From NCBI GenBank assembly GCA_031264185.1, contig JAISEL010000068.1:1-33072 (forward strand): a DNA stretch of 33,072 nt, in the 5' to 3' direction. This stretch comes from Deltaproteobacteria bacterium. Its GTDB lineage: Bacteria > Desulfobacterota > Desulfarculia > Adiutricales > Adiutricaceae. The notes under the pieces were generated by a model. That model saw only the letters and a program-made list of their open reading frames with translations, was not told where the DNA came from and did not search any database. Made by a program: the position numbers and the translations under genes. Position 1 is the first letter of the stretch. Each line of letters starts with the position of its first letter. This document shows, piece by piece, positions 13,912-32,669 of this stretch.

Positions 13912-15182
13912 CCTATCATTTCAGGCTTTTAATTCTCTGCCCTTAAAAAACCGGCAGGACCGCCGCGAATTCCCGAATCACCGGTCCGCCCGGCCTGGTG
14001 ACTCAGAGCCGACCGGAGCACGTCCCGCCTATTCGTCCGCCGCAGAGCAGATTTCGTTCGGAGCTTTATTGCGCCCAGGCCGGAGACAGGATTATTAAGG
14101 CCGATTGAAAGCCGGGCTCTGATAATGACCCGCACCAAAGTTCCAATTATCACCAGGCGCTGGGCTTTCAGGTATTTTTTTGATCAGAGGTTTGTCTTTA
14201 CCCCAATCCCGCCAATATGCCTGGCTTTCTCTCTGAAACAGTAAAAAAAGCTCAAAAGAATCAACGTTAATTTGGCGGCGATGCCGGCAGTTGCAGACAT
14301 TCCACCGCTTTCTGACGGCGGCCTTTCTGAATACCTCAGCCGGAGACAAAACTCCTGGCAGCCCGTTCAACTGTCTGCAAGTGAGGCTATGGAGGAAGGG
14401 CGCGGACCGGAAGTTAGGCCTATGTCTTTTAATGCGGCCGCTGGCTGTCAGCCTCCTTAAAATGGCTCAACCCGTTAGGGCCGGACTTTTACCGCCTCTT
14501 TCGCTGAATTAAGCCCTTATAAAATCCAGTATTGATTCTTAGAACCAAAAAATTCCGGCTCGGAGGAGATCCCGGACTGTCAGGCCGAAATATTACCTCG
14601 GCGGATTATTATGATAATCTATTTCTTCATTGATTTTACCTTATGATGATTTGTTTGTATCAAAATTATCCGCCGGGGTAATACTCTGAAATTGAGCGGC
14701 AGATTCTCCTCTCCTCTCGCCGGCCTTAGCCTCAGGCACTGGTGACCCGAGCCAGGACGGTCCTGCCAGCCTCTCACCTGCCCTTCCCTGAATTAACATA
14801 TTTTGCAGACATTTCCCAATATCCACAGAAACAGACAGCCGAACTGGGCAAAAAAAACTGCCCGAAATGGCGCTCTCAACTTACTTCATATTGCACCAAT
14901 TATACTGCGCCTGACCTGGAGTTCATGCCCTTTTTAGTCGAGCATTCTGGGGCTGGTCAAAAGGATTTTTCAGCCATTCCCGAGAAAAGAGATGCAGGAC
15001 AGCGGAATTTGCGGCTTTATAACCGCAACCCACAAACGGGCGCAGAATCACAGAATCATCATGACCGGAGCAGAGCCACTGAAGGCTTGACAATCAGTTA
15101 ATACTTTAATACTCTAAAAACGTCATTTCGAAGAAATTTATTTCTGTCTGGCGGTCTGATTTCAAACTAATTTTTGGGCTTT
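13912..15182. other. Gene-poor decayed region left of the AAA-ATPase pseudogene
   Basis: Several overlapping short frames occur on both strands, none with a recognisable family. On the minus strand, 14290-14370 encodes QLNGLPGVLSPAEVF, which faintly resembles the C-terminal end of IS30-type transposases. The rest of such a gene is absent. The MITE-like element at 14591-14683 lies here. I read the stretch as gene remains rather than active genes. Confidence 0.45.
14591..14683. mobile_element. MITE-like element, copy 1 (93 bp)
   Basis: Terminal inverted repeats of 26 bases at 14591-14616 and 14658-14683 differ at only three positions. The arms begin TATTACC and contain the core GGCGGAT. The interior of 41 bases has no coding capacity. 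The arms match those of the element at 17058-17239. The TA at each end could be a TA target duplication, as produced by IS630/Tc1-type transposases (inference). Confidence 0.65.
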
Positions 15183-16899
15183 ATGATGAAACTTTTACCA
15201 AGCGCCAATCCATCTTTTTCCTCAATGATAAATGGCAATCGAATCTATGTCGATAAAACGCAGCATATTTATAATTTGATTGCAGCAGATGATCTGTATT
15301 TTCTGTCCAGACCCCGCCGATTCGGAAAAAGCCTTTTAATCAGCGCTTTGAACTGCCTTTTCAAGGGTCAGCGTGAGCTTTTTAAAGGTCTGCGGATTGA
15401 CAGTTCCGATTATGATTGGCAGCCTTATCCCATAATTAATATCAGTTTTGGTGATGCCTACGCCCCGGATCTTGAGACTTTCAAGTCTTACCTGATGTCG
15501 ACACTGACAAATATTGCCGATGAAGAGGGGCTCCCGATATCTGACACTGTCCATTCTTCTTATTTCAGGAGTTTGATCGGAAAATTATCTGACAAATATA
15601 AGACAGAAGTTGTCCTCCTTATAGACGAATATGATGCCCCGATTGTTAATAATATTTTAAATGAGCCTTTGGCGGATAAGATACGGGAGCTGTTAAAGTC
15701 ATTTTACGGTGTCATCAAAACAAAATATGAGCTGCTGCGCTTCGTTTTTATTACCGGAGTGTCAAAATTTACCAAAACATCTCTCTTTTCCGAACTTAAT
15801 AGTTTGGTTGACCTGACGCTTGAATCGGATTACTCCAGTATTTGCGGTATTACCGAGGAAGAGCTGGTTTTTTATTTTCAGGATTATTTCCCGAACACTT
15901 TAGAAGATTTAATGAAATACAGTTATTTGCCTTCCGGCTCCACTGAAACTGATTTGTTAAATAAAATCCGGCACTTTTATGACGGTTACTCATGGGACGG
16001 CGAGACCAGAGTCTATAATCCCTGGTCCATTATGAATTTTTTAAGAAAAAAAACATTTAACTGTTTTTGGTATGAATCAGGCTCTCCCACTTTTTTTATT
16101 AAAGAAAAACAAAGTATATTTTAATTTTTTTGACAAAAACAATACAATTTCAGACCTTTCAAATGCTATTGAGATAGGCCGCTTTACTCCTAAAGCTTTA
16201 GCCTTCCAAACCGGATATTTAACTATTGATAAAGCAGACCGCACTAAAAGCACTCCTAGTTATTCGTTGAAAACTCCTAACTTCTAAGTTGAATACTCCC
16301 TTATGGTTTATTTATTGCACTATAATTGCAACAATATAACTGATATAGACGAATTTACTGCAAATTTAGAAGAAAAAGCGAATATTATCATACAAGCTAT
16401 CCTCGAAAAAGATGCCTCAACAGCCGCCAAAGCCTTTACCAGTTTTTTGGCAGGCATTGCCTATTCCCTTCATCTCTCTTATGAAGCTTATTATATGACA
16501 TTATTTTATTTTGTCTTTGTTTTAACCAGACAAAATCTTAAAAAACAAAAATCTGTCAGCGGCGGCATTCTGGATTGCGCTTTTGAGGCTCCCAATGGGG
16601 AAATATTTGTCTTTGAGATGAAACATGTCCCCTCCACTAAAAAAATAGAGGATACATCAATAGCTGAAGACAATAACGGAAAACCTGTCAAGAGTTTTAA
16701 AAAAGTTAAACTAAGCCAGCCTGAGATCAGCCGGGCTTTAGATAAAGCCGCTGAGGTGGCCATGAAACAGATTGAAGAAAATCAATATCCGGCCGAATAT
16801 TGGCAGTCCGGCCATAAAGTGTATCAAGTTGCTATAGCGGTTTGCGGTAGGGACAATGTCAGATTTGATTTTAAAGAATACGAACTGCCGAATTTGTAA
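15183..16899 (+). pseudogene. Broken AAA-ATPase-like / PD-(D/E)XK nuclease gene
   Basis: The gene belongs to the family with an AAA-ATPase-like N-terminal domain and a C-terminal PD-(D/E)XK domain, usually one chain of 500-570 aa. The N-terminal part has YVDKTQHIYNLI, the P-loop-like SRPRRFGKSL, LLIDEYDAPI as Walker B, and ITGVSKFTKTSLFS. The frame stops at 16124. Removing one T from the T7 tract at 16091-16097 joins GSPTF to LLKKNKVYFNFFDKN and on to ALAFQTGYLTI. That second frame then meets an in-frame TAA at 16285-16287 within NF*VEYSL. It reopens to the end, including GGILDCAFEAPNGEIFVFEMK with the nuclease Asp and Glu-x-Lys. So there is one frameshift and one nonsense codon. Met at 15183 or 15186 is the likely start; no Shine-Dalgarno is seen. 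Confidence 0.85.
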
Positions 16900-18433
16900 C
16901 GTATTGAACTTATTATTATATTATATTGTTTGGCACACCATAAGGCCATTACTATGCAATATTTTACGCATCATCATGCAACATTCTAAAACAGGCCAGG
17001 CCGCAGTTTCCGGCCAGGCTTCTTTTGATTTGAACTTCAAGCCTGTTCCGGCCAGACTATTAACCCGGCGGATAATTATGATAGATCAAATACTCCTTAT
17101 TATTTATAGACGATCACGGTATAATAATTATTTAGCCATACTACAAATGAACTATATAAATTGCATAATTTTTGAGTATACTAAAGACTGAAGAAACAAA
17201 GGATAAACTCTTTTATCATAATTATCCGCCTGGGTAATATTAGGTGATTAAAGGCTATTCTCTGCCTTCGCCTTTGAGGCCATGGGACTTTCGCCGACGG
17301 TTCATCAGAATAGGCCATTAAGTCCGGACTCGCAGCTCTTCGGAAAGCTTGAATCAGCTGAACATTCGTCAACCCTCAAAATAGTCTTTTTGTCAGCGGC
17401 GGAGAAAATTTGGCAACAGAGGCCAGTACCCCTTTAAGAGGCAGCCCAACTCCACACCTTATTATTGTCTCTCAGACTCAATTCTTTTGCCGTCTGCAGC
17501 GCCTGGTTGCGATGCGGTTATCCTCATCCTGTCCTGGAACCGTTTCCGGCTTTTTTTGTGGAGTTTCCTTGGCCTAACCATTAACGATGTAGATGGAGAA
17601 CCAGATCGCCTTAATCTTCAGCTGACAGGCGACCATAATAATCTCCTGGCAGACCTTGAGCGCCAATTCTGGAGAGCCGGCGGATGTTCTCATCAGCCTT
17701 TCAGCCGCCATTCCTGACTTCACACCAATGTTGCAACCGCAAGCTAACCTCACAAAAATGAAATCCGCTCTCAAACAGTTCCTCAAACTGAAGCCTGATG
17801 CCTTTGTTCCCGACCGTCTGCCGGCCTCCTTCCGCCTGTTGTCGTAAGCGGCTATTCTGAAGCCAGTTCAGTACATTGATATCCTCACCCCCCGCTTCTT
17901 TGGGTCTATATGTTTAACGCCCTTGATTAATCCCCGGACATATCCGCATTCCCCAGGGCAGCCAATAGCGGCATTCTGTATTCCGCGACCCTAATGGACC
18001 TCTTTCTAAAAACGATGAACAGCTCTAATCAGGATTTTCTGAATGTTGCTCCAGGTGCTTTGACCTCAAATGACTACCACCGGCACAGTCCAGTGAGGCG
18101 GCGGCAGCTTCGGCTACATCTCAGGTTCGTTTCAGTTGAACCGGACAACCTGTAGCCCTCGGAAGGCTCTTCCAGGATAAGGCTAATGACCCTCCCCATC
18201 ATACGCTTCATTTACGCACTTCTCTCAGAAAGTATTGGATTTCTCTCTGTCAGCCAGCCCACCCGCTCTTGAACGCCTGATCCGGTTTCTGTTCGTCAGG
18301 CCAAAGGGCAGCTCCAGCCTTCTTTCGGCAGAATCCCGCAGCGTTCCCCCGACCATTAGCTGCTGTTAACACGTCCAAGTCTGTAAAGGAGCTTCACCTG
18401 CAGGTCATCACCCAGGAAATGAAGACCGCACCA
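16900..18433. other. Gene-poor region with decayed sequence
   Basis: No recognisable gene is present in about 1.5 kb. Short frames such as 17487-17717 (+) and 17574-17786 (-) overlap each other antisense and match no family I know. The second MITE-like element occupies 17058-17239. The GC content from 17400 to 18400 is that of coding DNA, which suggests old, disrupted genes. Confidence 0.5.
17058..17239. mobile_element. MITE-like element, copy 2 (182 bp)
   Basis: The 26-base terminal inverted repeats at 17058-17083 and 17214-17239 differ at two positions and share the GGCGGATAATTATGATA core with the element at 14591. The AT-rich interior of 130 bases is non-coding and unlike that of copy 1. 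Shared ends with different interiors are typical of non-autonomous elements mobilised by one transposase supplied elsewhere. No such transposase is in the window. Confidence 0.65.
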
Positions 18434-18533: not shown

Positions 18534-21500
18534 TTAGAATTCGTACTTAATATCCAAAGTACCGGACATACCGCGGCGATTGCCGAAATAGCCCTGGACT
18601 CCGGCATCAAGACTGATGGGAATAGTAGTACTGTTTAAAAGCTTAACTCCCAGTTCAGCCATAGCCGAACTGCCTTTCAGATCAGCGTGAGGCAGGTTGA
18701 TCCCAAAAGCCGTCGCTTCGGTTTCGCCGTCAAATTCGTACATATAAGCTCCGCCGACGTAAGGGATAATGAAATCATTGTAATTGTAGTTCACACGGCC
18801 GCCTGTCCTGATTCTGGATGAGGTGGCGTCTTCCAGCCTGAAGGGAGCCCCAAGGATCCTCTCATCGGCTCCGTTCTGCTTATTCCACAGGTACTTGAAG
18901 TAAACATCCAGGTCGGCTTCCTGGGTGACCTGAATATCGTAGCCGACACCGGCATGGGCACCTACATAAGTGCCGGAAGTCTTGAAGCTCGGTTTCCGAT
19001 TGGCAATCCGGACATTTTTGGCCTCGAATTCCGATTTGGCGTTGCCGATCCGTCCGCTGGCTTCCAGATACAAAGTTCCGGCGCTGGACTGGATGTCATA
19101 GCGGCCCATTAAGCCGGCCCCAACATAGGAGACATCCCCTTCGACATTAAGGTCCGGACCAACCTGAGTATTGGTATAGGATTCGTAGCTGCCAAAGCCG
19201 AATTCACCAAATAAGCCTAAAGTCAGACGGTTCTGGTCAAAGTAATTGCCAGCCGCCACCCCTAAAAGCCAGTTTACTCCGGAGAGATCGACATGGGAGC
19301 CGGTATCATAGCGGCTCTTGCCGCCGGACACTCCCAGAAAAACTCCAAGTCCCTGGTCGGAAGCGGTTCTGGCTAACGCCATGGAGATGCCGTTTTCGGC
19401 AATATAATCCTGTCCCTGATTGACGAAAGCCATACGGGCCGCCGAAGTCTCACTGATGGCCTTGACTTGAGGGGTTAACCTGGGGGAAGCAATGACCTGG
19501 GCTTTAACTGAACCGTCTGCTGGGTCCTGATAGACGGAATAATCATAAATAAACAGAAAGCCGTCCTTGCCCTCAATCTGATCGACCGCCATAGTTAAAT
19601 TAATTGGTGTTGCGGCATTAATTAAGGTAATTGTATCACCTATGCCCATCAAAGTATTGCCGCCCACGCTTTGAATATCTAGAATTTCGGGATCTGGTCC
19701 CAGGTCCACGGTCGAGGCGTTCAGAGCCACATAACCGCTCTGAACATTGCTTGGAAGATAAAAAATATAATTCTGAAAATTTTCGACTGTGTCAATTGAC
19801 GACTCTGCGTTATTGATTCCGCCGACTATCAAGAGGTTCCCGGTGTACATGTCGGCTGTAGAGTCATCCGATAAACCGCCGATTATACTCCCATTGATAA
19901 CAACGTTGCCGCCAATTGCCACAGTATTATAGGTAGCGTTGCCGTTTCTTTCGGAATAACCGCCATATAAATCGCCGGTTATGTTACCCCCAGCGATACT
20001 AAGGTTGTTCAAAGTTGCGGAGCCGTTTGAAGTGTAACCTGCGGCGATATCTGCCACGACCTCAGAGTTTAAAATAGTGACTCTATTAGCGGAAGCACTA
20101 CCGTTATCTGTTGCTCCGCCGAAAATCACAGAGTTGCCTGATGCATTTGGAATACGGCTTCCATCTATAATCACTGAGTTATTGGTAACAGCGCCATCCG
20201 AGGATTCACCTCCAATGATTATACCATCTACAACACTGTTTTCCCTAATCAAAACAGCAGAATTTTTGACATCCCCTAGACTAGATGATCCACCGAAAAG
20301 TACTATATCAGTGAGGTTACTGCCGTCTCTAACATCGACACCAGCATTCGTAACATTGCCTACTAAAGTTCCAGCGGCAAAAACTACGCCAGTAGAAGTA
20401 CTGTTTGTGATCACAACAGTTGAGTTATGAATATTGCCTTCTCCGGTCAAGCTGCCGCTAATATCGCTCACGTTACTGTCAGCTACCAAAACAAAGGTGT
20501 CTTGGATATTGCCTTTAGCACTAAATGCACCGACCACCTCACCGTCTACAGAGCTTCGGACAACTGATACTTTGTTGCCCATCATAGAGGTGCTGTTAAT
20601 TGAGGCATAGGCGCCAAATATAAGCCCATTTACTGTAACATTAGTAATATTAACTACATTATTATTGGCGCTGGCAGAATGGTTAATTGAAGCTCCGTAT
20701 ACGTAGATATCATTGGCTTCGTTAATATTTTCAATCACAACTTGGTTTTCATTAGCTGAACCGTTATCGGTCCTGGCCCCGAAAACTTCAGTCGTTGACA
20801 CAAAAGTAACATTATTGCTGGTGGAATTATCGATCCGAACAGAATTCCTTGATGCCTGACCGGTACTGGTCCAACCGCCGATCACATCACCGCCGATAGA
20901 ACCGCCGTAAATTTCCACCCGGTTTTGGTTGACAGTGATATCAGCACCAGTACTGTTTTGATTTAGGCCGCCGATAACGTCGTATGTAACGGTGCCGTTA
21001 TAAATAGTAACTGAGTTGTTTTCAACGACAGATCCGTTATACTGACTGGCCCCACCGTAAACCTCTTTCGCAACTCCGTTATACATGACTACACTGTTAT
21101 TATAGACATCGCCCTTTTCCGCAGCTTGGCCGCCTAAGACACCACCTGAAACATTGACGCCTGTACCATTGATTATGATCTCATTATAGCGTACTATTCC
21201 ATTACCAGTACCTTGGGAGCCACCGCCGATCGCATTTCCGCCAATCGTGCCATTAATTAATTCAACTTTATTATACTCAGCTGTCCCGTTAACAACCCCG
21301 CCGCCAACTACGTTTTGTCCTATCGTAGAAGTTGTGTTGATATTAACTGTGTTGTAGGTCGCGTTATATGTTTCGTTAGCCAGGCCGCCGAAAACATTCC
21401 CAGAAATATTGCCTGACAACGTAAAATTAACAGAGTTTCTATCGGAATTACTAGTTCTGTTGCCTCCGCCCACCAACGATTGATAAGCGGTGATTGACCC

Positions 21501-21767
21501 ATTTACCACGACGTTGTTGCCAATGGCTCCGCCTGAGCCAGCCCCAGGAACGATAGTGTCACCAAACCCCGGCGGCATACTGCCGGTGGTTATTACGTTA
21601 GTTGTATCAACTCCTGATCCGTTTACAGTGATATTTGGAATCAGCTGGGCCATAAGGGTCCCGCCCCATGCCAGAATTATGGCCGCCCCAATCACCAAAA
21701 CCAGACCAACCCCGCCCAAGAGATTGAAACCGGTCCGTGATATTGCTCCGCAGTTTAAGCTGCCCAT
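18534..21767 (-). CDS. Type V autotransporter with Asn/Gly-rich repeat passenger
   Basis: The 1077-aa protein is predicted to be exported to the cell surface. An extended N-terminal signal (TGFNLLGGVGLVLVIGAAII core) ends near TLMAQ, around residue 40. The passenger, to about residue 700, is built of many 22-30-residue repeats of the type N-x-V-x-I-x-[NG]-G-x-[IV]-x-G-x-[IV]-x-GG, as in beta-solenoid adhesins. It is rich in NGS, NGT and NNS and has essentially no cysteine after the signal. The last ~270 residues form the beta-barrel with alternating aromatic strands and end in the terminal Phe (GTLDIKYEF). I chose the ATG at 21767 because AAGGAG lies six bases upstream; an in-frame ATG eight codons earlier lacks that spacing. 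It is flanked by long non-coding stretches and is monocistronic. Confidence 0.93.
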   Translation of the reverse strand: MGSLNCGAISRTGFNLLGGVGLVLVIGAAIILAWGGTLMAQLIPNITVNGSGVDTTNVITTGSMPPGFGDTIVPGAGSGGAIGNNVVVNGSITAYQSLVGGGNRTSNSDRNSVNFTLSGNISGNVFGGLANETYNATYNTVNINTTSTIGQNVVGGGVVNGTAEYNKVELINGTIGGNAIGGGSQGTGNGIVRYNEIIINGTGVNVSGGVLGGQAAEKGDVYNNSVVMYNGVAKEVYGGASQYNGSVVENNSVTIYNGTVTYDVIGGLNQNSTGADITVNQNRVEIYGGSIGGDVIGGWTSTGQASRNSVRIDNSTSNNVTFVSTTEVFGARTDNGSANENQVVIENINEANDIYVYGASINHSASANNNVVNITNVTVNGLIFGAYASINSTSMMGNKVSVVRSSVDGEVVGAFSAKGNIQDTFVLVADSNVSDISGSLTGEGNIHNSTVVITNSTSTGVVFAAGTLVGNVTNAGVDVRDGSNLTDIVLFGGSSSLGDVKNSAVLIRENSVVDGIIIGGESSDGAVTNNSVIIDGSRIPNASGNSVIFGGATDNGSASANRVTILNSEVVADIAAGYTSNGSATLNNLSIAGGNITGDLYGGYSERNGNATYNTVAIGGNVVINGSIIGGLSDDSTADMYTGNLLIVGGINNAESSIDTVENFQNYIFYLPSNVQSGYVALNASTVDLGPDPEILDIQSVGGNTLMGIGDTITLINAATPINLTMAVDQIEGKDGFLFIYDYSVYQDPADGSVKAQVIASPRLTPQVKAISETSAARMAFVNQGQDYIAENGISMALARTASDQGLGVFLGVSGGKSRYDTGSHVDLSGVNWLLGVAAGNYFDQNRLTLGLFGEFGFGSYESYTNTQVGPDLNVEGDVSYVGAGLMGRYDIQSSAGTLYLEASGRIGNAKSEFEAKNVRIANRKPSFKTSGTYVGAHAGVGYDIQVTQEADLDVYFKYLWNKQNGADERILGAPFRLEDATSSRIRTGGRVNYNYNDFIIPYVGGAYMYEFDGETEATAFGINLPHADLKGSSAMAELGVKLLNSTTIPISLDAGVQGYFGNRRGMSGTLDIKYEF

Positions 21768-21810
21768 ATCGTTCTCCTTGTAATATGGCAAAAATCCAAA
21801 AGATCTGAAA

Positions 21811-23004: not shown

Positions 23005-23736
23005 CTAATCTTCCATATCCCCCCAGTCCAGGCTTCTGGATCTGAATTCAATCACTTTGAAGCCATTTACGTGGCGTATGGCCTCAACATGGTCAGACTT
23101 GGCATCAGGATCAATAATTACCGGCCATCGGTATCCACGGGGCGAATTCAAGTCCGGCAGCTTCCAGAAGGGATCGGTTTTAATCATGCCCAGTTCCAGG
23201 CCGAAACGAAAAATCTGCTGACAGAGGGTTTTAACCTTTTTGGCTGTTGCCTCATGACCCAGTCTTCTGAAAGGATCTAACAGCTTTTCTTGGATGATTC
23301 TGGGTTTTAAAGCCGTAAACCTAATCTGGCCAAGAGAAGGCCTTATGTGCCTCTCCAGAAGGCCCCTTTTGGTCTTCATGGTCTGGACACTGAAATGATC
23401 CTGAGATAAGTCCAGCCATAAATCCAGCAGGTCCCCGAAAGTCCTGCAGGTGTGGTTTTGGACCGACTGCGAAGATGCTTGGGGCGGTAAACTTACCTTG
23501 TGCTGTTCAGCCGCCTTTCGGGCGCCGTTTGGTGACATTTCCGGGTAAGACCCTAAAGTGGTGACCCGGTTACTTACTCCTACTCGGTACCGGAGCCGCC
23601 ATTTTCTCAGGCCAGAGGGCAAAACTTCCAGAAAAAGGCCTCCGCCCCTACCATCATAAACCCGGTAAGCTTTAGCCAATGGAGGCAGATATTTGACATC
23701 AAGATGGTTCAAGTCGTGGCCGAAAGTTCTAATCAT
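23005..23736 (-). pseudogene. P4-type tyrosine integrase, truncated before its catalytic domain
   Basis: The 243-aa frame has the N-terminal arm-binding domain of P4-like integrases (DUF4102): YRVYDGRGGGLFLEVLPSG and KWRLRYRVG, then TLGSYPEMSPNGARKAA. The SAM-like core-binding domain follows, about 95-190, with TFGDLLDLWLDL and QIFRFGLELGMI. Full family members have about 400 residues. This one stops after YRWPVIIDPDA and the altered FRSRSLDWGDMED, which looks like the first catalytic-Arg region with residues missing. The later H-x-x-R and Tyr motifs are absent and I could not find them in other frames nearby. AGGAG nine bases before the ATG supports the start. It cannot recombine DNA but may still bind it. 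Confidence 0.85.
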
Positions 23737-24548
23737 GGAAAATAACTCCTGTGCTTAAAAAATAACGTCCCCTGTTGATAGAGGACAATAATAATATCTT
23801 AATGTTAAATTTTTTCTTTGGCCGACAAAAAAACATCGCCCGGCGGCGATCAGGAAGTAAGGTATTTTAGAAGGTAGTCGGCGTTAAGGCGGAACGTTAA
23901 ATAAATAAGTCCGCAATTCGGCAGGCCAGAAAAATTAACTGGCTCATAGGATGGTTTTAAGTTTTAAGCGCTCTAAAATCACTCCTTATAAATAATACCG
24001 GAATAATTGGCTAAAAATACCTATATATTCCTGCTATACAAAATTGGCGCTTCTAAGAGCCAAAAGCCGTTTATCTGGGATTTAGCTACATTTTTTGAGC
24101 AGTATCTTTGATACTTTTATCTTCATCCCAAAACCACTGGGTTAAAGTCTACAACATTTGAAAAATTATGTCCAGAAGTTCTACTGTCTACTGGCGTGAT
24201 TACCAACGGAAAGAATAAGCCTGCAAGGCAATGATTTTTTGAGAATAGATAAATTCAGTCGCTCACTTTTCGTCAGCGCTTCCAGGCATTATGGAAAAAG
24301 AGAGATATAAACCACCTCTCCCATTTGACTTGACATCAACGTTCAAGTTGCCAGAATTTCCAGAACCTTCTGATGGTATATATGGCCTGAATTTTTTCAA
24401 GGCATTTTGGGAACACTAATGAAACTCATTGTCACTGTGAAAAAAGGTGATTTGTGGCAGCAGTTTGGCACATGTTTGGGCACCACATGCCAAAAAATAG
24501 TCACGCAGTCACATCAAATCATCGAATCCAAAAACTAAGTACTTGTAA
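23737..24548. other. Non-coding stretch between the two integrase remnants
   Basis: About 810 AT-rich bases with no recognisable gene on either strand. The right end continues the decayed second integrase, whose core and catalytic domains I cannot trace here. They were probably deleted. Confidence 0.5.
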
Positions 24549-24683
24549 TCACCTGATTTTTACAGTTGGTGCCAGTTTAGAGCCGTTAAGAAAGACTTCC
24601 AGGTGAAGGCCGCAGCCGTCAAAAATCTTTTAAGGTTTCTCCTTGGGCTTAGGGGATTTAATCTTTAGGTCTGTTAAGGGCAT
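24549..24683 (-). pseudogene. N-terminal remnant of a second P4-type integrase
   Basis: Reading leftwards from an ATG preceded by GGAGG, the frame gives MPLTDLKIKSPKPKEKP, then TAA, then KIFDGCGLHLEVFLNGSKL. Intact P4-like integrases start with this pattern, with Tyr or a similar residue where the stop stands (KPYK-[LI]-[FY]-DGGGL-x-LEV). Homology ends after NGSKL and the frame closes at 24549. Only about 40 of ~400 residues remain. It lies 150 bases downstream of the tRNA-like att core, the normal place for such an integrase gene. Confidence 0.75.
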
Positions 24684-24800
24684 GGTAACCTCCATAAAGG
24701 GAACATGCCTCTTATTATGTCCCAATCGATCGGAGCTATCAATATTGATAATACCCATAATCCATGAGAAAAAAGCTAAGTTATTGATTTTATTATGCGT

Positions 24801-24831
24801 AAAAAAAAGACGATAATCTCGTCTTTTTTTT
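24801..24831. terminator. Bidirectional terminator between the att core and integrase remnant
   Basis: Eight A residues plus GACGA (24801-24813) pair perfectly with TCGTC plus eight T residues (24819-24831) around the 5-base loop TAATC. On the minus strand it begins 5 bases after the CCA of the tRNA-like sequence, as expected for a tRNA terminator. Confidence 0.88.
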
Positions 24832-24835
24832 GCAA

Positions 24836-24855
24836 TGGTGCCGAAGGTCGGGATC
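24836..24855 (-). other. Probable att core: 3' end of a tRNA-Leu-like gene
   Basis: On the minus strand the sequence reads GATCCCGACCTTCGGCACCA. This has the layout of a tRNA 3' end: T-loop end GATC, T-stem CCGAC, acceptor strand CTTCGGC, discriminator A and encoded CCA. The acceptor strand is that of E. coli tRNA-Leu(CAA), leuX, a well-known P4-integrase target. Further 5' the bases no longer form a T-arm, so only the 3' fragment is present, as at the far end of an integrated element. A terminator and an integrase remnant follow in the expected order. Confidence 0.55.
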
Positions 24856-24859
24856 ACCA

Positions 24860-26012
24860 CATCAAAACGTAACTAGTTGATTTTACAGCGTTTTTTATCT
24901 AAAAAAAATTTATGGCACTCAATTTTGGCACAGTGCCTTTTATTGTTTTTTACCAAATTATTCGGCTTCGATCAAGGATTTTTTCATGAACATAGCCACA
25001 TCACACACCTAAGCAGCTGGTTCAACCGACAAGTTCCATGGGCCTGGGAGAAGTCCAAAAATTAATGATGTCCAAGAGTCTATATTCTTGTATGTGCTTT
25101 TCGGAGCCCGTTGCGGCTGAGATAGCAGGAAATCCCCCTATTTTAGGGTAATATAGGCCCCTGCCGGAAAACCTGGAAATCTGGAAATCAACCGTAAATC
25201 CCCAATATTACAAGGTTTTTGTTTCCCGATAAGCTGGAAAAACCTTGGAATTTTCCAACTCAGAGCTTAAGCCATTTTTGGAAAAATTCTGACCTCAGAA
25301 CCACAAAAAATCATGACCCTTCTGTCCTGTCCAGCTCCCTTTCAGGGGGAGCCGGGCAAGCACACCGTTACAACTTCAATGCCAACTCCAAGGCCACCGA
25401 CCGGATCACCTTTCCGCATGGACGGACTGCCGATATACCTTGATGAGTCGCTTCCCGGCCTCTCCGCCACCTTCGCCCTAGCTAAAATCCAACCAAAGCT
25501 CCGTCCAGACCCACCAATAAGCCCTCAGCGACGATTACCACCATAATGTACTACAGACACACTTGCCGCCCTCCGACCAAAGCTCTGGCTGATGCCATTC
25601 TGGCACCAAATACCTGAGAGACAATTACTCCGCCAACAGCGGTTCCGACCTGGCAGCAATATGGTATTAATTCTGGCCATGTTTTAATATTGTAGTGACC
25701 GCAGTCCAATTGTTTGTTGTTTGAAAGAAATTTGGACTGGAACTCCAGGGAACGCCTTAGTAGCCACATTAATTCCCTTGACCACGTCATAGCCTCGCAG
25801 AGAGAATAAGGCCGTCAAGCTGACCGTCCGATAAAAACAGACATGAACCGGAAATGTCTGGAATCAGATGAACAGCCGTGTCCAGACCGTTCCGCGTTTT
25901 AGGCTCTTAAAAATCTTGGGGGATGGAGTTTGAACACAAAGGAGCAAAAGACCTGAAGAAATAATGAATTTTAGTTATTGAGGCAACGGGTAATTTTATA
26001 TTAATATAAATA
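24860..26012. other. Gene-poor stretch with possible PAAR-like remains
   Basis: No intact gene is seen. On the minus strand, 25342-25790 shows pieces in more than one frame. One is a hydrophobic Gly/Ala segment (TAVGGVIVSQVFGARMAS). Another is YIGSPSMRKGDPVGG, which resembles the R-x-GDP turn of PAAR-repeat spike proteins. Stops and frame changes separate them, so if real it is a pseudogene. The remaining sequence shows nothing I can name. Confidence 0.35.
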
Positions 26013-26291
26013 TTAAAAAATATCGGCAAGAATACACATGATAATAATAATAAAGATTATAATACCACAACCTGAACAACCTGAAGTGTCATTAGCTACA
26101 TTATCAATCTCATTACTAATAGTTTGCTTTATTTTGTCAATTTTTTGTTTTCTTTTATCCTTTTTTTCAGCTTCTTCTAATGCTTTCATGATAGCAATTT
26201 GTTTAACTAAAATAGGAGCCCCACAGTGAATACAAAAAGGGGCATCACTTGATATGAGAGAACCACAATCTGGACAATTAATTAATGCCAT
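26013..26291 (-). CDS. Zinc-ribbon protein with C-terminal membrane anchor (92 aa)
   Basis: The N-terminal zinc ribbon has CPDC at residues 6-9 and CIHC at 20-23. A charged, probably coiled-coil segment (about 33-65, EEAEKKDKRKQKIDKIKQ) leads to a hydrophobic stretch at about 75-90 (IIIFIIIIMCILADIF) that would anchor it in the membrane, ribbon facing the cytoplasm. No Shine-Dalgarno is evident before the ATG. Small proteins of this layout are common and of unknown role. Codon use is AT-rich like the following cluster, unlike the chromosome left of 14 kb. Confidence 0.75.
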   Translation of the reverse strand: MALINCPDCGSLISSDAPFCIHCGAPILVKQIAIMKALEEAEKKDKRKQKIDKIKQTISNEIDNVANDTSGCSGCGIIIFIIIIMCILADIF

Positions 26292-27779
26292 AAAATCAAT
26301 CTTTTTTGGGAGACCAAATTTAAGTGCAGGAAAACTTACTTGTTGTTAAGAAAACGCAGGTTTATAAACATAAAAAATAGCATTTTATCTATAAAAAAGT
26401 CTCTTTATTGTTTTTTTAAATCTGATATTGTCGTAAAAATATGCTTATTGATCTAAGTACAATCTTTTTTCTAAATTAATCTCTACTCAAGAGATTGTGG
26501 AAACCACAGGGGGCACAACTCTAAGGGTCAAGACTTATTTACCATGAAAATCCGTGTTAGTGCTAACTTATCAAAAAATTTTATTTTTATCAATGCTTAT
26601 AAGGAGCAAATCTGTAATTCTACCCCGCCATTAATAAAACTGTCCAGCAGTCCTAAATTTCGATAAGACCAATGGAAGTCGTTGATTTTATTATATTTTT
26701 TGTATTTCCTGACAAACTTTCATGGGACAAGCCTCGGCCACAGTTATTCCGTTTGAAAAGGACTCTGCTGAGGCTTGGTTCAAGCTGTCTTCCGTTTTTG
26801 CGTCCAAAGCCGGAGGGAGTTCAAGAGACGATTTGTTAAGGAATGTTTTTATAATAAAACAGAGGCCGAGCCAGGGGAATGACTCTTCCAACTGTCGGCT
26901 TAGTCAACATAAGCGGATTGGTAATCCTGCCCAGCAGACTGTTTGTCCCTGAGGTGGCTGGATTTTTTTCTGTAGTTTCAGCCGGTTCGCCATACTCTGT
27001 TTTCTGGTCAATTGAGTTCGAGTCATGGCAGTTTTCAGCTGGTGAATTTGTTTTTACCCTATCTTTGATCTTGGGAATCTGTGGTAAAGTTGTGTTGAAC
27101 AGCGAATTCTACCAAGATCCGGAGAATCTTCCTGGTCAATTTGATTGCCGACTTGGTGTCAGGGCAGTTAGTTTCGATTTCGCCAATGGAGGGAGACAGA
27201 CTCCTGATTAGTCCCTAAAGATCCATGTTCAGGGCTTCAACCTCCATGAGTGGCGGAATGGCGGTTCTCCCTATAAAAAGTCCAAAAAAATTTTAAGCAC
27301 TTTTTAGGTCTTAATAGCAGTTATTATGCTACTAAAAATCTATTTACCATTTAAATAGTAATTTTTAGTTCGAATATTATTTTTTTCTATATTTTAAACT
27401 CTTGACATGCTTTCCAATTTTTGCTAACGTAACAGAAAATAACTTTCAGGCTTGGTTTTACCAGAGTTAATCTTTCCCTGCAGTCACTTAGTTTAGCTAA
27501 GTAATCGTATAAACTACTTAGTGGAATGTCTTGATGAATTCTAAATCCCAAAAACCACCATCTCCACCAACTCTAGAAGTTGGAGAAAAATTAGACTTTT
27601 AGCAATACTCAGTAAAGTTGTTCATTGACACTTGGTTCGCTTCATTCTCATCTTTGAAGAAAATGCATAAACGATGGTATTCGGCTTTAGTCTATTAAAA
27701 TTTTTTGCTATTTCAATACTGACTAGCCCGATTAATCTGTAAATAAACCATTCAATTGTAACTATTTAGGTTTATAAAC
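26292..27779. other. Long AT-rich region without a clear gene
   Basis: About 1.5 kb. Open frames at 26722-26952 and 26879-27211 (+) and 26691-26891 (-) overlap, lack recognisable motifs and have poor starts. The section 26690-27230 is richer in GC than its surroundings and could be an old minus-strand gene broken by several stops. The rest is AT-rich and I see no RNA gene. Confidence 0.45.
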
Positions 27780-28097
27780 ATGGAACTATGTATTGTTCAT
27801 TATAATAACGAGTTAAATGGAAGCATCCAATGCCCTAAATGTCATTGTGGCAATCTACATCATGTTAAGGTTGAGATTTTTTCAAGGCAGGAAGATAAAG
27901 GCGAAGTCTTTAATACGGTTTTTTCTAAAGGTACTCAAATTTCAATTGATAAAATTCTAGAGGCTTCAGATAATCCGTCATCGCGCAGAGAAGGGCTCAA
28001 AATTTGGTTTACATGCGAAAATTGTGATTTATATTCTGCATTAAATGTAGTTCAACATAAAGGTGAAACATTATTGTATTGGGATGATATAAGTTAA
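27780..28097 (+). CDS. Small zinc-ribbon-like hypothetical protein (105 aa)
   Basis: Two cysteine pairs, CPKC at 18-21 and CENC at 79-82, are separated by about 55 residues containing a conserved-looking NPSSRREG. The chain ends in QHKGETLLYWDD. This suggests one zinc site formed by distant knuckles. I have no firm family name. It is soluble, with no signal or membrane segment. It lies 63 bases before the PD-(D/E)XK gene on the same strand, in the same AT-rich DNA, and may belong to that cluster. Confidence 0.65.
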   Translation: MELCIVHYNNELNGSIQCPKCHCGNLHHVKVEIFSRQEDKGEVFNTVFSKGTQISIDKILEASDNPSSRREGLKIWFTCENCDLYSALNVVQHKGETLLYWDDIS

Positions 28098-28160
28098 TAA
28101 AATATTTTTAATTGTTTATATAATTTTTTTATTTTTTTAATAGATATCAACGGTTGATTT

Positions 28161-29099
28161 ATGTCAAGATTAACACCTCAGGAACTCCAAGAAGTTCAAC
28201 GTTTTCTTGCTGAAGACAAGCCTTTGCCTGAAAAATACAGGTTTCTCCTGTTTGAGGATAAGAGGGAAGAGAAGTTGGTTTTCAACGGAAAGTCTAATAA
28301 TAATTCTAATTTGGAAATAAATGTGAATAATATTTTTGAAAAGTTATGTGATTGGGCAGCTTTGCCCTATTATGTGTTGGAAACTCGAGTGGATATATTT
28401 TTGGCATATTTTCTTCCGAAGATTATAAATAAACTGAACTCTGAAGCAAAAATTACCGACGATAGTATTTTTCCACAATTTATACTACAGAAGAAAGATA
28501 AATCTCGTAAAATTGTTGATTTTGTTGCATTCGGCGATAAAGTGACATATATAATTGAATTTAAAACAAGTAATGAATCACGAAATAAAAAACAAAGTGA
28601 ATTTTTGAGAGATCCAAAACTTTTACGAGGTAACTGGAAAGAGGATCTTCTGAGTCTCTGCGAAAATCGCGTAAAAAATTCTGTTCATAAAGATAAATAT
28701 GAAAATCTCAAAGAGAAACTTGAAAAATTAGATAAAAAAGAAGCTGATAATATTGAAGTATGGGTTATTCAACCAGTAAAAGATAATAACTGTGATGAAT
28801 TATTAAAAAATAATAGTTGCGATGAAGCAGTAAAAGATAATAACAATGCTAGAAAATTAAAAATCATTACTTTTGATAGTATTATTGAAATTATTGGTGA
28901 TTTGCCGGATCCTTTGGCTGTACCTTTTAAAAGAATGCTTGAGGTCATCGTAGGAAACCAACACCCAAGGTGTAAATATTGTTATACTAGATTGAAGCAT
29001 GTTAGCCCCATGAAGTCAGGTAGATACTGGCTGTGTCAGAAAGATGAATGTAAAAAAAGATACTTTGATGTTGATGGTAAGCCAGGGGACGAGTTTTAG
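28161..29099 (+). CDS. PD-(D/E)XK nuclease-like protein with shared N-terminal module and C-terminal zinc ribbon
   Basis: The 312-aa protein has three parts. Residues 1-45 form a module (LPEKYRFLLFEDKREEKLVF) that recurs in the small gene at 29462. Residues about 55-255 contain KIVDFVAFGDKVTYIIEFKT. Asp120, Glu133 and Lys135 have the spacing and hydrophobic strands of a PD-(D/E)XK catalytic site, so a DNA endonuclease is likely. Residues 271-297 (CKYC, then C292 and C297) form a zinc ribbon. Residues 206-228 carry a short internal repeat rich in Asn and Asp (CDELLKNN, CDEAVKDNN). The low GC content contrasts with the left half of the window. It probably belongs to a restriction-type defence cluster, but I recognise no named family. 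Confidence 0.7.
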   Translation: MSRLTPQELQEVQRFLAEDKPLPEKYRFLLFEDKREEKLVFNGKSNNNSNLEINVNNIFEKLCDWAALPYYVLETRVDIFLAYFLPKIINKLNSEAKITDDSIFPQFILQKKDKSRKIVDFVAFGDKVTYIIEFKTSNESRNKKQSEFLRDPKLLRGNWKEDLLSLCENRVKNSVHKDKYENLKEKLEKLDKKEADNIEVWVIQPVKDNNCDELLKNNSCDEAVKDNNNARKLKIITFDSIIEIIGDLPDPLAVPFKRMLEVIVGNQHPRCKYCYTRLKHVSPMKSGRYWLCQKDECKKRYFDVDGKPGDEF

Positions 29100-29461
29100 T
29101 CTGCTACTTAACATTCAAAGTGACATAAAATTAGCTAAAATTGTACCCAAGGACTTAATGTCATTAAAATAGAGTGTCATCATGCCGACTTGTAGGATTT
29201 AGTGTGCGGAAAGATAGTCTGTTAGCCCCGAATCATAATTAGGACTGGCATAAACCTTTAAACCATTTATTTGAAACTTTGAAACCAGAAATAGCTTTAC
29301 AATCTTTCTTATTTGTGCCATAGATTTTATTAATTTAAATATTTGTCTGTAATTTAAAGATATCTGTACGGGTACTAAACACTCCACACTGAAGTTTATA
29401 GTCCTTAAGGTTTTTATTGTTTCTTTTTATTATTCATGTTTGCTTTTATTAGGGCTCAAAA
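29100..29461. other. Intergenic gap inside the defence cluster
   Basis: About 360 AT-rich bases with only a short minus-strand frame of no likeness to known proteins. If a methyltransferase was once complete here, nothing of its catalytic part is recognisable. Confidence 0.5.
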
Positions 29462-29677
29462 ATGGGTAAACTATCCGAAGAAGAAATACGAGAAATTAAC
29501 CGATTTCTTTCTGAAGACAAACCTTTGCCTGATAAGTACCGGTTTCTCCTGTTTGAGGACAAGCGAGAAGTAGAGTTGGTCTGGAATGGCAAGTCAAGCG
29601 ATGTTTGCAACATTGTTCTTCCTTTTCAAATAATTGAGCAAATTGATGAACAAGAGAGAAAAAAACTCATGATTTAA
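29462..29677 (+). pseudogene. Orphan N-terminal module, probable DNA methyltransferase stub
   Basis: The 71-residue frame starts KLSEEEIREINRFLSEDKPLP, continues DKYRFLLFEDKREVELVWNG, and ends VLPFQIIEQIDEQERKKLMI. Residues 1-45 match the start of the PD-(D/E)XK protein at 28161 at both protein and DNA level. From memory, this beginning with LPFQ-x-IE-x-[IV]DE is typical of some site-specific adenine/cytosine-N4 DNA methyltransferases, which continue for 400 or more residues. Here the frame stops after an A8 run and no DPPY-type motif follows in any frame before 29777. It is either a truncated methyltransferase or a free-standing small protein. Confidence 0.55.
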
Positions 29678-29776
29678 GTTTTATGTTGGAAAATAGGCCG
29701 TCTTATGTTAATTTTTTAGGTAATGACAGTCTAAAGAAACATGCTCTTGATGTACTTTTAAGGACAAAATTTTATT

Positions 29777-31588
29777 ATGCCCAGTAGTTTTAAATCCGGG
29801 GATTATGAATTAAAGAAATACCTTTTACCAAAAATTCATAACGGTGAAATTCAGCTGCCGGATTTTCAGCGTGACTGGGTCTGGGATGACGACCGGATCC
29901 GTCAGCTCATTGCCAGCATTGTCAATTCTTATCCCATCGGGGCATTGATGTTTCTGGAGTATTATCATAACGAAAATATAAAATTTAAATATCGTCACTT
30001 TACCAATATTGAAACTGAGGCCAGACCGGATTTACTGGTTTTAGATGGTCAACAGAGACTTACGGCCATGTATTGCGCTTTATACAGTGAAAAACCGATC
30101 GAAACTCGAAATCGAAACAAGAAAGTATCCCTTTATTATTATATTGACATTGAAAATAGTCTTAAAGACAGAGTTAATATTATTGATTCAATTATCTCTG
30201 TTCCATACAACAAAGTCTTTGTTGATCCCAAAAACCATCAAACTTACGATTTAATTTCCAACGAAAATGAATATTCCGCTCATATGTTCCCTCTAAATAT
30301 TATATTTGATTCCGATAAATTTCAAAAATGGTATGGCGGATATATAGAGTATCATAATTCTAACTTTCAAGAAATTTTTGCAAAATTTAGTAAATTTAGG
30401 GAAGATATTCTTGAATCAATTTTAAATTATTCTGTTCCTGTAATTATTTTAACTAAAGAAACAACTAAAGAAGCTGTTTGTCAGGTTTTTGAGCATGTCA
30501 ATACCGGCGGTGTGTCGTTATCAGTTTTCGATCTGGTAACCGCTTCTTTTGCTATCAGTGATTTCCAGCTCAGAGAAGATTTAACCGAACGCCGAAAGGC
30601 TCTTGCCGAACTGCCCAGCCACCAGGCCAATGTTCTATCGGAATTCTCTGAAACCTATTTTTTAACCAGCGTGACTCTTTTAGCCAGTTATTACCGGAAA
30701 CAGGAAAATGACTCCGCCGAAGTGGTCAGTTGCAAGAAAGGTGACGTTTTAAGTCTCAGTGTCGAGGATTATAATCAATACATAGACAGACTTATTGACG
30801 GCCTGACAGCGGCGGCCCGGTTTCTGAATGAAAATCGGATTTTTACGGCCAAGGATCTGCCGTACAACACCCAGATAATCCCTTTAGCGGTTTTGATGGT
30901 AATTTTGAAAAACCAGTTGGACGACAATTCGGTCAAATCAAAAATTAACTGGTGGTACTGGTGCGGGGTATTTGGCGAGTTGTACAGCAGTGCCATTGAA
31001 ACCCGGTTTGCTGCGGATGTCACAGAAATTCCTAACTGGCTTGACGGAAGATCGGAACCGGATACTGTGGTCAGATCTTTTTTTCAGCCGACCAGACTTC
31101 TGACTCTGGTCTCCCGCAACAGTGCCGCCTACAAAGGTCTCATGGCTAGGATCCTAAAGAATGGGGCTCTAGATTTGAAAAGCGGCAGCCCCATTGATTT
31201 TGCTACTTACAGTAATTTAAATGTAGATATTCACCATATTTTTCCGCAAAAATTTTGTAAAGACAAAGAAATACCGCATAATTTAACCAATTGTGTCGTA
31301 AATAAAACGCCGATTTCCAGCAGAACGAACCAGATAATAGGTGGCGATGCGCCCAGCGAATATTTGAAGAAACTTGAGACCAACTATAGCATTAGTTCAG
31401 AGTCACTGAATTCCTACCTACAGACCCATTTGATAAATCCAGTCCTTATTCGCTCTGACAGTTTTCAGCCCTTCTTTAACCTTCGAGCCAAAGCACTCCT
31501 TAACCTCATCAGTCAGGCCACAGGTCGGGCCATCTCCAATTTAGACAGTCCAGAAGTGATCCAGGCTTTCGGTGGTCCTTTGAAATGA
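29777..31588 (+). CDS. DUF262 / HNH (GmrSD-like) protein
   Basis: The 603-aa protein has the DUF262 domain at the N-terminus, with LPDFQRDWVW at 27-36 and LDGQQRLTA at 89-97. This ParB/sulfiredoxin-like fold binds and hydrolyses nucleotide in GmrS and related defence proteins. The C-terminus has a DUF1524-type HNH site: DIHHIFP at 484-490 (His486, His487), then Asn505, Asn509 and Asn518. GmrSD, SspE and BrxU proteins combine these domains to restrict modified phage DNA, so a type IV-like restriction role is likely. The target modification is unknown. Codon usage is mosaic: the 5' end and the 3' half are GC-richer, while roughly 30060-30480 is AT-rich. The Shine-Dalgarno (AAGGA, 15 bases upstream) is weak. 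Confidence 0.85.
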   Translation: MPSSFKSGDYELKKYLLPKIHNGEIQLPDFQRDWVWDDDRIRQLIASIVNSYPIGALMFLEYYHNENIKFKYRHFTNIETEARPDLLVLDGQQRLTAMYCALYSEKPIETRNRNKKVSLYYYIDIENSLKDRVNIIDSIISVPYNKVFVDPKNHQTYDLISNENEYSAHMFPLNIIFDSDKFQKWYGGYIEYHNSNFQEIFAKFSKFREDILESILNYSVPVIILTKETTKEAVCQVFEHVNTGGVSLSVFDLVTASFAISDFQLREDLTERRKALAELPSHQANVLSEFSETYFLTSVTLLASYYRKQENDSAEVVSCKKGDVLSLSVEDYNQYIDRLIDGLTAAARFLNENRIFTAKDLPYNTQIIPLAVLMVILKNQLDDNSVKSKINWWYWCGVFGELYSSAIETRFAADVTEIPNWLDGRSEPDTVVRSFFQPTRLLTLVSRNSAAYKGLMARILKNGALDLKSGSPIDFATYSNLNVDIHHIFPQKFCKDKEIPHNLTNCVVNKTPISSRTNQIIGGDAPSEYLKKLETNYSISSESLNSYLQTHLINPVLIRSDSFQPFFNLRAKALLNLISQATGRAISNLDSPEVIQAFGGPLK

Positions 31589-31811
31589 AATTCTTGTAGG
31601 CATTTAACCAGCTTTCAGAAAAAACAACGCATTATAATTCTTTATACTTTAAATATAGTGGATGTCTTTTGTTAGTTAGTCTCTATTCTAATTGCTTGAT
31701 ATTTTTTAACTTAAAAGCACGTGAATCAGTCACCATATCTGCTATTCAGGAATGAGATGGACCAAAGTAGGAATTCGCTCTAATCTCCGCTTTATAGAAA
31801 AACGCGTTTCA

Positions 31812-31855
31812 AACCGCTTCAGCGGTTCGGTAAGCAGTCGTTTTACGACTGCTTA
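31812..31855 (+). promoter_or_regulatory. Tandem RNA hairpins in the leader
   Basis: Hairpin 1 is AACCGC-TTCA-GCGGTT (31812-31827). Hairpin 2 is TAAGCAGTCG-TTTTA-CGACTGCTTA (31831-31855). Both stems are perfect and only three bases separate them. Neither has a T-tract, so they are not terminators. Two adjacent stem-loops upstream of phage genes recall the put antitermination RNAs of phage HK022, but the sequence is not known to match. Confidence 0.5.
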
Positions 31856-31913
31856 TCAAAAAATTTCATATATATATTATTTATTTGATATAGTTTTGAT
31901 TAAAGCTTTAAGG

Positions 31914-31946
31914 CCGCCCGTGTTTAGGCACGGTGCGGTTTTTTTT
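31914..31946 (+). terminator. Terminator-like hairpin just before the Erf-like gene
   Basis: CCGC+CCGTG pairs with CACGG+GCGG with one bulged T, loop TTTAGG, followed by T8. The Shine-Dalgarno GGAGG begins three bases after the T-tract. It could attenuate or insulate the gene. Confidence 0.75.
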
Positions 31947-31964
31947 ATTGGAGGTGTTCTCATC

Positions 31965-32669
31965 ATGGAAATGTTCTGTTCCGAAGACGTTAAAGAGCTG
32001 GCAGGCGCGATGCTTAAGGTTCAGGCGGAAATCAATCCTGCCATCAAAGACGCTGCAAATCCTTTCGCTAAAAGCCGGTACGCCACGCTCAATTCGGTAA
32101 TCACCGCTTCGAGAGAGGCCTTATTGAAAAATGAGATTTGGGTCGTTCAATTTCCGGTTCCGGTCGAATCCGGTCACCTGGGACTGGTCACCAAACTGAC
32201 CCATGGCCCCAGCGGCCAATGGCAGTCTTCCCTCATGGTCATGCCGCTGGCAAAATTCGATCCTCAAGGTTACGGCAGCGCAATGACCTATGCCAGGCGA
32301 TATTCAATGGCGGCTCTGATTGGAATCATAGTGGAGGACGATGACGGCGAAAAGGCCTGCGGCCATACAGCCGCTATTCATGATGTATCTAAGCAAGCTT
32401 CAAAATCCAACGGCCATTCGACATTCAACCGTTCTTTCGGGGACAGGCTCCCGGAAGGCGAACCGCTCGATAAGCTCCAGCTTGACAGACTCCCCAAACT
32501 TAACGGTGTCACCTATAAGAGCGTCAAAGGCAATGACGGCTCACTTTGCATTATTGCTGTCGGCGACACATACCCCAAAAGAGACATTCTCTCCGGAACA
32601 GGATTCAGATGGAATCCGGGGAAAAATGTCTGGTGGCGCAATGCCGACACGGCTCAAACCGCTGCCTGA
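31965..32669 (+). CDS. erf: Erf-family single-strand annealing protein (phage recombinase)
   Basis: Erf proteins anneal complementary single strands in phage recombination. The 234-aa chain carries the family core at residues 1-130: INPAIKDAANPFAKSRYATL, then SVITASREALLKN, GQWQSSLMVMPL, and GSAMTYARRYSMAALIGI ending in VEDDDGEKA. A polar linker (about 135-160) leads to a second small domain ending YPKRDILSGTGFRWNPGKNVWW, a pattern seen in other small accessory domains. I start at the ATG at 31965, after GGAGG, because the upstream extension of the frame is unlike Erf. It is followed by an exonuclease gene, the normal partner of a phage annealase. Confidence 0.88.
   Translation: MEMFCSEDVKELAGAMLKVQAEINPAIKDAANPFAKSRYATLNSVITASREALLKNEIWVVQFPVPVESGHLGLVTKLTHGPSGQWQSSLMVMPLAKFDPQGYGSAMTYARRYSMAALIGIIVEDDDGEKACGHTAAIHDVSKQASKSNGHSTFNRSFGDRLPEGEPLDKLQLDRLPKLNGVTYKSVKGNDGSLCIIAVGDTYPKRDILSGTGFRWNPGKNVWWRNADTAQTAA

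Follow-up and report, generated by a model that had tools for sequence, protein, structure and literature searches.

Putative internal-deletion derivatives of a resident IS630-type element flank a decayed nuclease gene in a deltaproteobacterial genome

The two short elements that lie on either side of a decayed nuclease gene in the stretch of deltaproteobacterial DNA analyzed here (33,072 nucleotides, hereafter the window) are best explained, with a probability of about 95%, as MITEs that arose from an IS630-type element by internal deletion, inserted at TA and landed independently of each other. In the model proposed, an IS630 transposase, supplied in trans, would recognize common ends of about 24 bp (TTA[A/C]CCCGGCGGATAATTATGATA), excise the element and insert it at a TA, which would be duplicated. 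The family has been amplified in this genome to about 180 elements, among which at least three kinds (MITE-A, MITE-B and MITE-C) are distinguished, and one MITE-A and one MITE-B would have landed separately, on the two sides of what is now an AAA/PD-(D/E)XK pseudogene.

The MITE-A copy in the window (14591-14683, plus strand) measures 93 bp including the flanking TA (14591-14592 and 14682-14683) and consists of an 89-bp element with terminal inverted repeats (TIRs) of about 26 bp, and the MITE-B copy (17058-17239, plus strand) measures 182 bp including the TA duplications at 17058-17059 and 17238-17239. The 17-bp core of the ends is found at 14600 (plus strand) and 14658 (minus strand) with one mismatch each, and at 17067 (plus) and 17214 (minus) with none; the chance expectation is 0.16 cores per window, and none of 100 shuffles of the window reached four. 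A repeat search of the window paired the two copies in both direct and inverted orientation; they are alike at their ends over 26-29 bp and unlike in their interiors. Both elements are short (less than about 300 bp), lack a transposase gene and carry 26-bp TIRs, by which they qualify as MITEs. The region from 14500 to 17300 had no match in the plasmid collection.

The same ends are abundant in the genome (4.40 Mb in 166 contigs), where copies were counted by pattern searches and from retrieved stretches. The core occurs at 374 sites with up to three mismatches (17 for the reversed control) and at 322 sites with up to two (3 for the control), and the total of about 180 elements is an estimate, taken as half of this excess of core sites. 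Patterns from the interiors matched 67 times for MITE-A, at up to three mismatches, and 49 times for MITE-B, with no match of the reversed control in either case. A third family, MITE-C, is represented by at least 22 copies among the retrieved loci, all 22 of them complete, and by 13 matches in a pattern search. These related kinds, at least three in number, differ in length (93 bp for MITE-A, about 183 bp for MITE-B and about 104 bp for MITE-C) and in the mean pairwise identity of their complete copies, which is 95% for 61 copies of MITE-A, 91% for 41 of MITE-B and 94% for 22 of MITE-C; because its identity is the lowest, the MITE-B family looks the oldest. Across 59 relatives, hits to the core are scattered and near background, with zero to two sites in each genome of the same genus. 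The highest count, eight sites, mostly GGCGGATAATTATTAGA, was obtained for a genome of another genus in the same family (G013), and two of these sites, retrieved together with a transposase gene, delimit a related IS630 element. Because the core is so rare in the relatives, the amplification is confined to this genome among those compared.

Elements of about 1.21 kb with the same TIRs were detected by transposase searches and an inverted-repeat scan on four contigs (C111, C94, C106 and C87); a further copy of this size, on C153, is interrupted by a MITE-A, and C135 carries a shortened copy. The best open frame, on C125, encodes 323 amino acids up to the contig end and matches the IS630 transposase profile NF033545 with 192.5 bits (cut-off, 100); it contains a DDE_3 domain (PF13358, E 3e-33) and an HTH_33 domain. 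The predicted HTH and DDE_3 transposase places the parent element in the IS630 family. Every assembled transposase copy is broken by stops, frameshifts, truncations or a contig end, and no single contig carries a complete, unbroken gene. On C125, the first 298 residues are open to the contig end, where 119 nt overlap exactly with both C63 and C35; beyond the overlap, C63 stays open to a stop codon and the right TIR, whereas C35 has a premature stop. An intact transposase copy is likely to exist, because C125 overlaps exactly with C63 and the latter is open to its stop codon. Several contigs, C125, C35 and C63 among them, end within these repeats, and the fragmentation of the assembly is explained in part by this repeat family.

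For most relatives of the transposase in other bacteria, the ends begin with TATTA(A/C)CCCGGC or a close variant, which links end sequence and transposase clade. A search of the genomes of named species with the transposase returned only relatives of 29-62% identity, from many phyla. A pair of ends 1.42 kb apart on C39 was considered as an autonomous element and rejected, as it consists of a MITE-B with a different IS630 nested in it at a TA, and the transposase encoded there was set aside as a partner of the MITEs. This nested element (L017, 1492-2912) belongs to a second IS630 lineage with the ends TATTACCACGGCACGAAACTCTGA, further copies of which lie on C16, C42 and C26.

Joined-flank searches for empty sites yielded 12 gap-free pairs of filled and empty sites, in which the empty site is TA in ten cases and GA or CA, one substitution off, in the other two; the weak member of the set is B24, which matches sequence adjoining its own element. 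Further cases came from another comparison. The target duplication is therefore TA, as for IS630 and ISY100, which insert at TA and duplicate it (PMC2170065). One MITE-A is missing from a corresponding site that is 96% identical over 302 nt, and a MITE-B found in one IS copy is absent from many others. Nested insertions are frequent, with MITE-A found not only in the split IS copy on C153 but also in an IS end on C110 and in a MITE-B. We infer that the MITEs are moved in trans by the IS630 enzyme. The sequence-only reading had described two elements with common 26-bp inverted ends and different interiors, which the cores and the repeat search bear out, and had suggested that they could be a new non-autonomous family, to be checked by searching the genome for the 26-bp end, aligning copies to define target duplications and finding a full transposase with matching ends. 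The copies, the duplications and a matching transposase gene in the same genome uphold the non-autonomous character; the one family becomes at least three related families, all apparently from one IS630-type element, and this element has the matching ends, with all of its assembled transposase copies broken.

The descent of the MITEs can be traced from their alignment with the two ends of the IS. MITE-C consists of the left 24 bp and the right 86 bp of the IS, joined via a shared hexamer, TTTTGA, and its right part includes the end of the transposase gene. MITE-A aligns with the left 42 bp and the right 46 bp, and MITE-B, more loosely, with the left 109 bp and the right 48 bp or so, at scores of 81 and 47 against 29 and 30 for the best of 200 shuffles; the alignments of all three families outscore the best of 200 shuffles. 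Because all three align with both the left and the right end, these families are read as internal-deletion derivatives of the 1.21-kb element. At the left end, MITE-B and the surviving IS are only about 66% alike, and the direct parent of MITE-B may therefore have been an older or lost relative of this IS. It is also possible, although the less likely course, that MITE-B came from a second, related IS630 with a transposase of its own, and that the 1.21-kb IS served only MITE-A and MITE-C. The greater divergence of MITE-B (91% mean identity), its loose resemblance to the IS beyond the TIR and the presence in the genome of other IS630 clades with different ends would fit such an origin. However, the end of MITE-B agrees with those of the IS at all but a few of its 24 positions, no full-length element with the MITE-B subterminal sequence was found in the retrieved sequence, and the odd spacing of some MITE-B copies was accounted for by truncation, nesting or contig ends.

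The gene between the two window elements encodes an AAA-ATPase_like domain in its 5′ part (15174-16124, plus strand; PF09820, E 2e-56) and a PDDEXK_9 nuclease domain in its 3′ part (16303-16899, plus strand; PF08011, E 1.7e-10), and is split by a disruption of the frame. Its best paralogue, on contig C64 (L225, 1117-2844), is 84% identical and has a single intact frame of 575 amino acids, so the gene had been rightly called decayed. Genes of this kind form a multi-copy family in the genome, with further paralogues at loci L226 and L227, and the AAA/PD-(D/E)XK gene is a member of this host-gene family that stands outside the MITEs proper. Elsewhere in the window, a gene on the minus strand (18534-21791) encodes a 1085-amino-acid protein with no Pfam match and with diverged paralogues across the family, including 26 matches in one congener. 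Synteny with congeners via this neighbor was tried and rejected, the best match having 61% identity over half of the protein among many paralogues. Profile matches to a partial phage-type integrase (23005-23736), a GmrSD_N-domain gene (29777-31588) and an ERF recombinase gene (31752-32669) suggest that the part of the window from 23005 to 32669 is a prophage or defense-related region.

Alternatively, the 2.65-kb segment that contains the AAA-nuclease gene might have been moved, or be movable, as an IS630-type composite unit by joint use of the outermost ends of the MITE-A and MITE-B copies, and the sequence-only reading had raised this for the segment from 14.6 to 17.2 kb. To our knowledge, MITEs of other transposon families are the only ones known to behave in this way. 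The two outermost ends are intact and inverted relative to each other, and composites bounded by miniature elements, the TIME-COMPs, are known for Tn3-derived MITEs (PMC13367494). However, the two window elements belong to different families, and the AAA-gene paralogues are not bounded by such elements: the homology with the intact C64 copy spans only 15082-16894, ending inside the MITE-bounded segment, and 4.5 kb retrieved from C64 contained nothing that closely matched the element end. Other paralogues are instead interrupted, by a MITE-B on C107 (an insertion that the C64 paralogue lacks) and by an IS end on C4, where a MITE-A lies just downstream. Genomic matches elsewhere to the segment between the elements (14690-17050) cover the AAA gene only, and the MITE-bounded segment as such turned up nowhere else in the genome. 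Close pairs are common, moreover, since 14 neighboring pairs within 2.6 kb were counted among 116 copies of MITE-A and MITE-B, compared with 7.7 expected under uniform placement, a modest excess that is taken as the result of nesting and gene avoidance. The joined outer flanks had only a self-match in the genome and, among 20 relatives, matched no more than 41 nt in a single one; a site lacking the segment as a whole was detected neither in the genome nor in these relatives. The composite movement is thus not supported by the sequences compared and appears very improbable, short of strict refutation, as no relative with synteny here is at hand. Independent insertion, which we infer for the two window elements, is the simpler reading, and the broken nuclease gene gives no sign of having moved with the two MITEs.

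Least probable of all is that the elements are immobile hairpin terminators or regulatory RNAs conserved at fixed gene positions, the sequence-only reading having named conserved terminators at such positions as a refutation of its own proposal: both elements fold strongly as RNA (z of −7.6 and −5.6) and lie in a long stretch without another intact gene, but strong hairpins are what any long pair of TIRs must form, the terminator scan found no T-run terminator at either element, no Rfam family was matched anywhere in the window, and fixed positions are excluded by the empty sites at TA, by the insertions within genes, IS elements and other MITEs, and by the irregular placement of the copies, 16 of 110 complete copies with enough flank lying inside open frames of at least 150 codons, compared with 28% of random TA sites in the retrieved sequence.

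The reading of the elements as MITEs that landed independently is in line with systems already described. The RUP elements of Streptococcus pneumoniae are 107 bp long, number 108 copies, have ends like those of IS630-Spn1, use a TA target and are inserted in IS elements (PMC2229807), and the present families resemble them as MITEs of about 100 bp in about 100 copies, with ends resembling those of an IS630-family element in the same genome, a TA target and insertions in IS elements. This likeness is one of description; the host lineage is different, at least three size families come from one IS here, and their interior sequences can be traced to the IS. ISY100 needs no protein other than its transposase, and in vitro it can move with just 30 bp from each end (PMC2170065), so such MITEs could be mobilized in trans. 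The present IS, which shares with ISY100 and the IS630-Tc1-mariner group a single HTH and DDE transposase, TIRs of about 24 bp and the TA duplication, is a separate lineage with putative activity only. TIME-COMPs and integron mobilization units are similar in that two MITEs bracket other DNA, but TIMEs derive from Tn3-family transposons (PMC13367494), and the present pair shows no evidence of joint movement. The three families are new members of a kind already known from RUP and IS630-Spn1.

What is documented here is a burst of MITEs together with its parent IS630 in the same genome, confined to one genome among those compared, and comprising three products of internal deletion that seem to differ in age. 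The deletion junction of MITE-C shows the origin of one of these derivatives, via a 6-bp repeat. The result is a useful annotation of real but familiar mobile DNA, of a kind known since RUP and IS630-Spn1.
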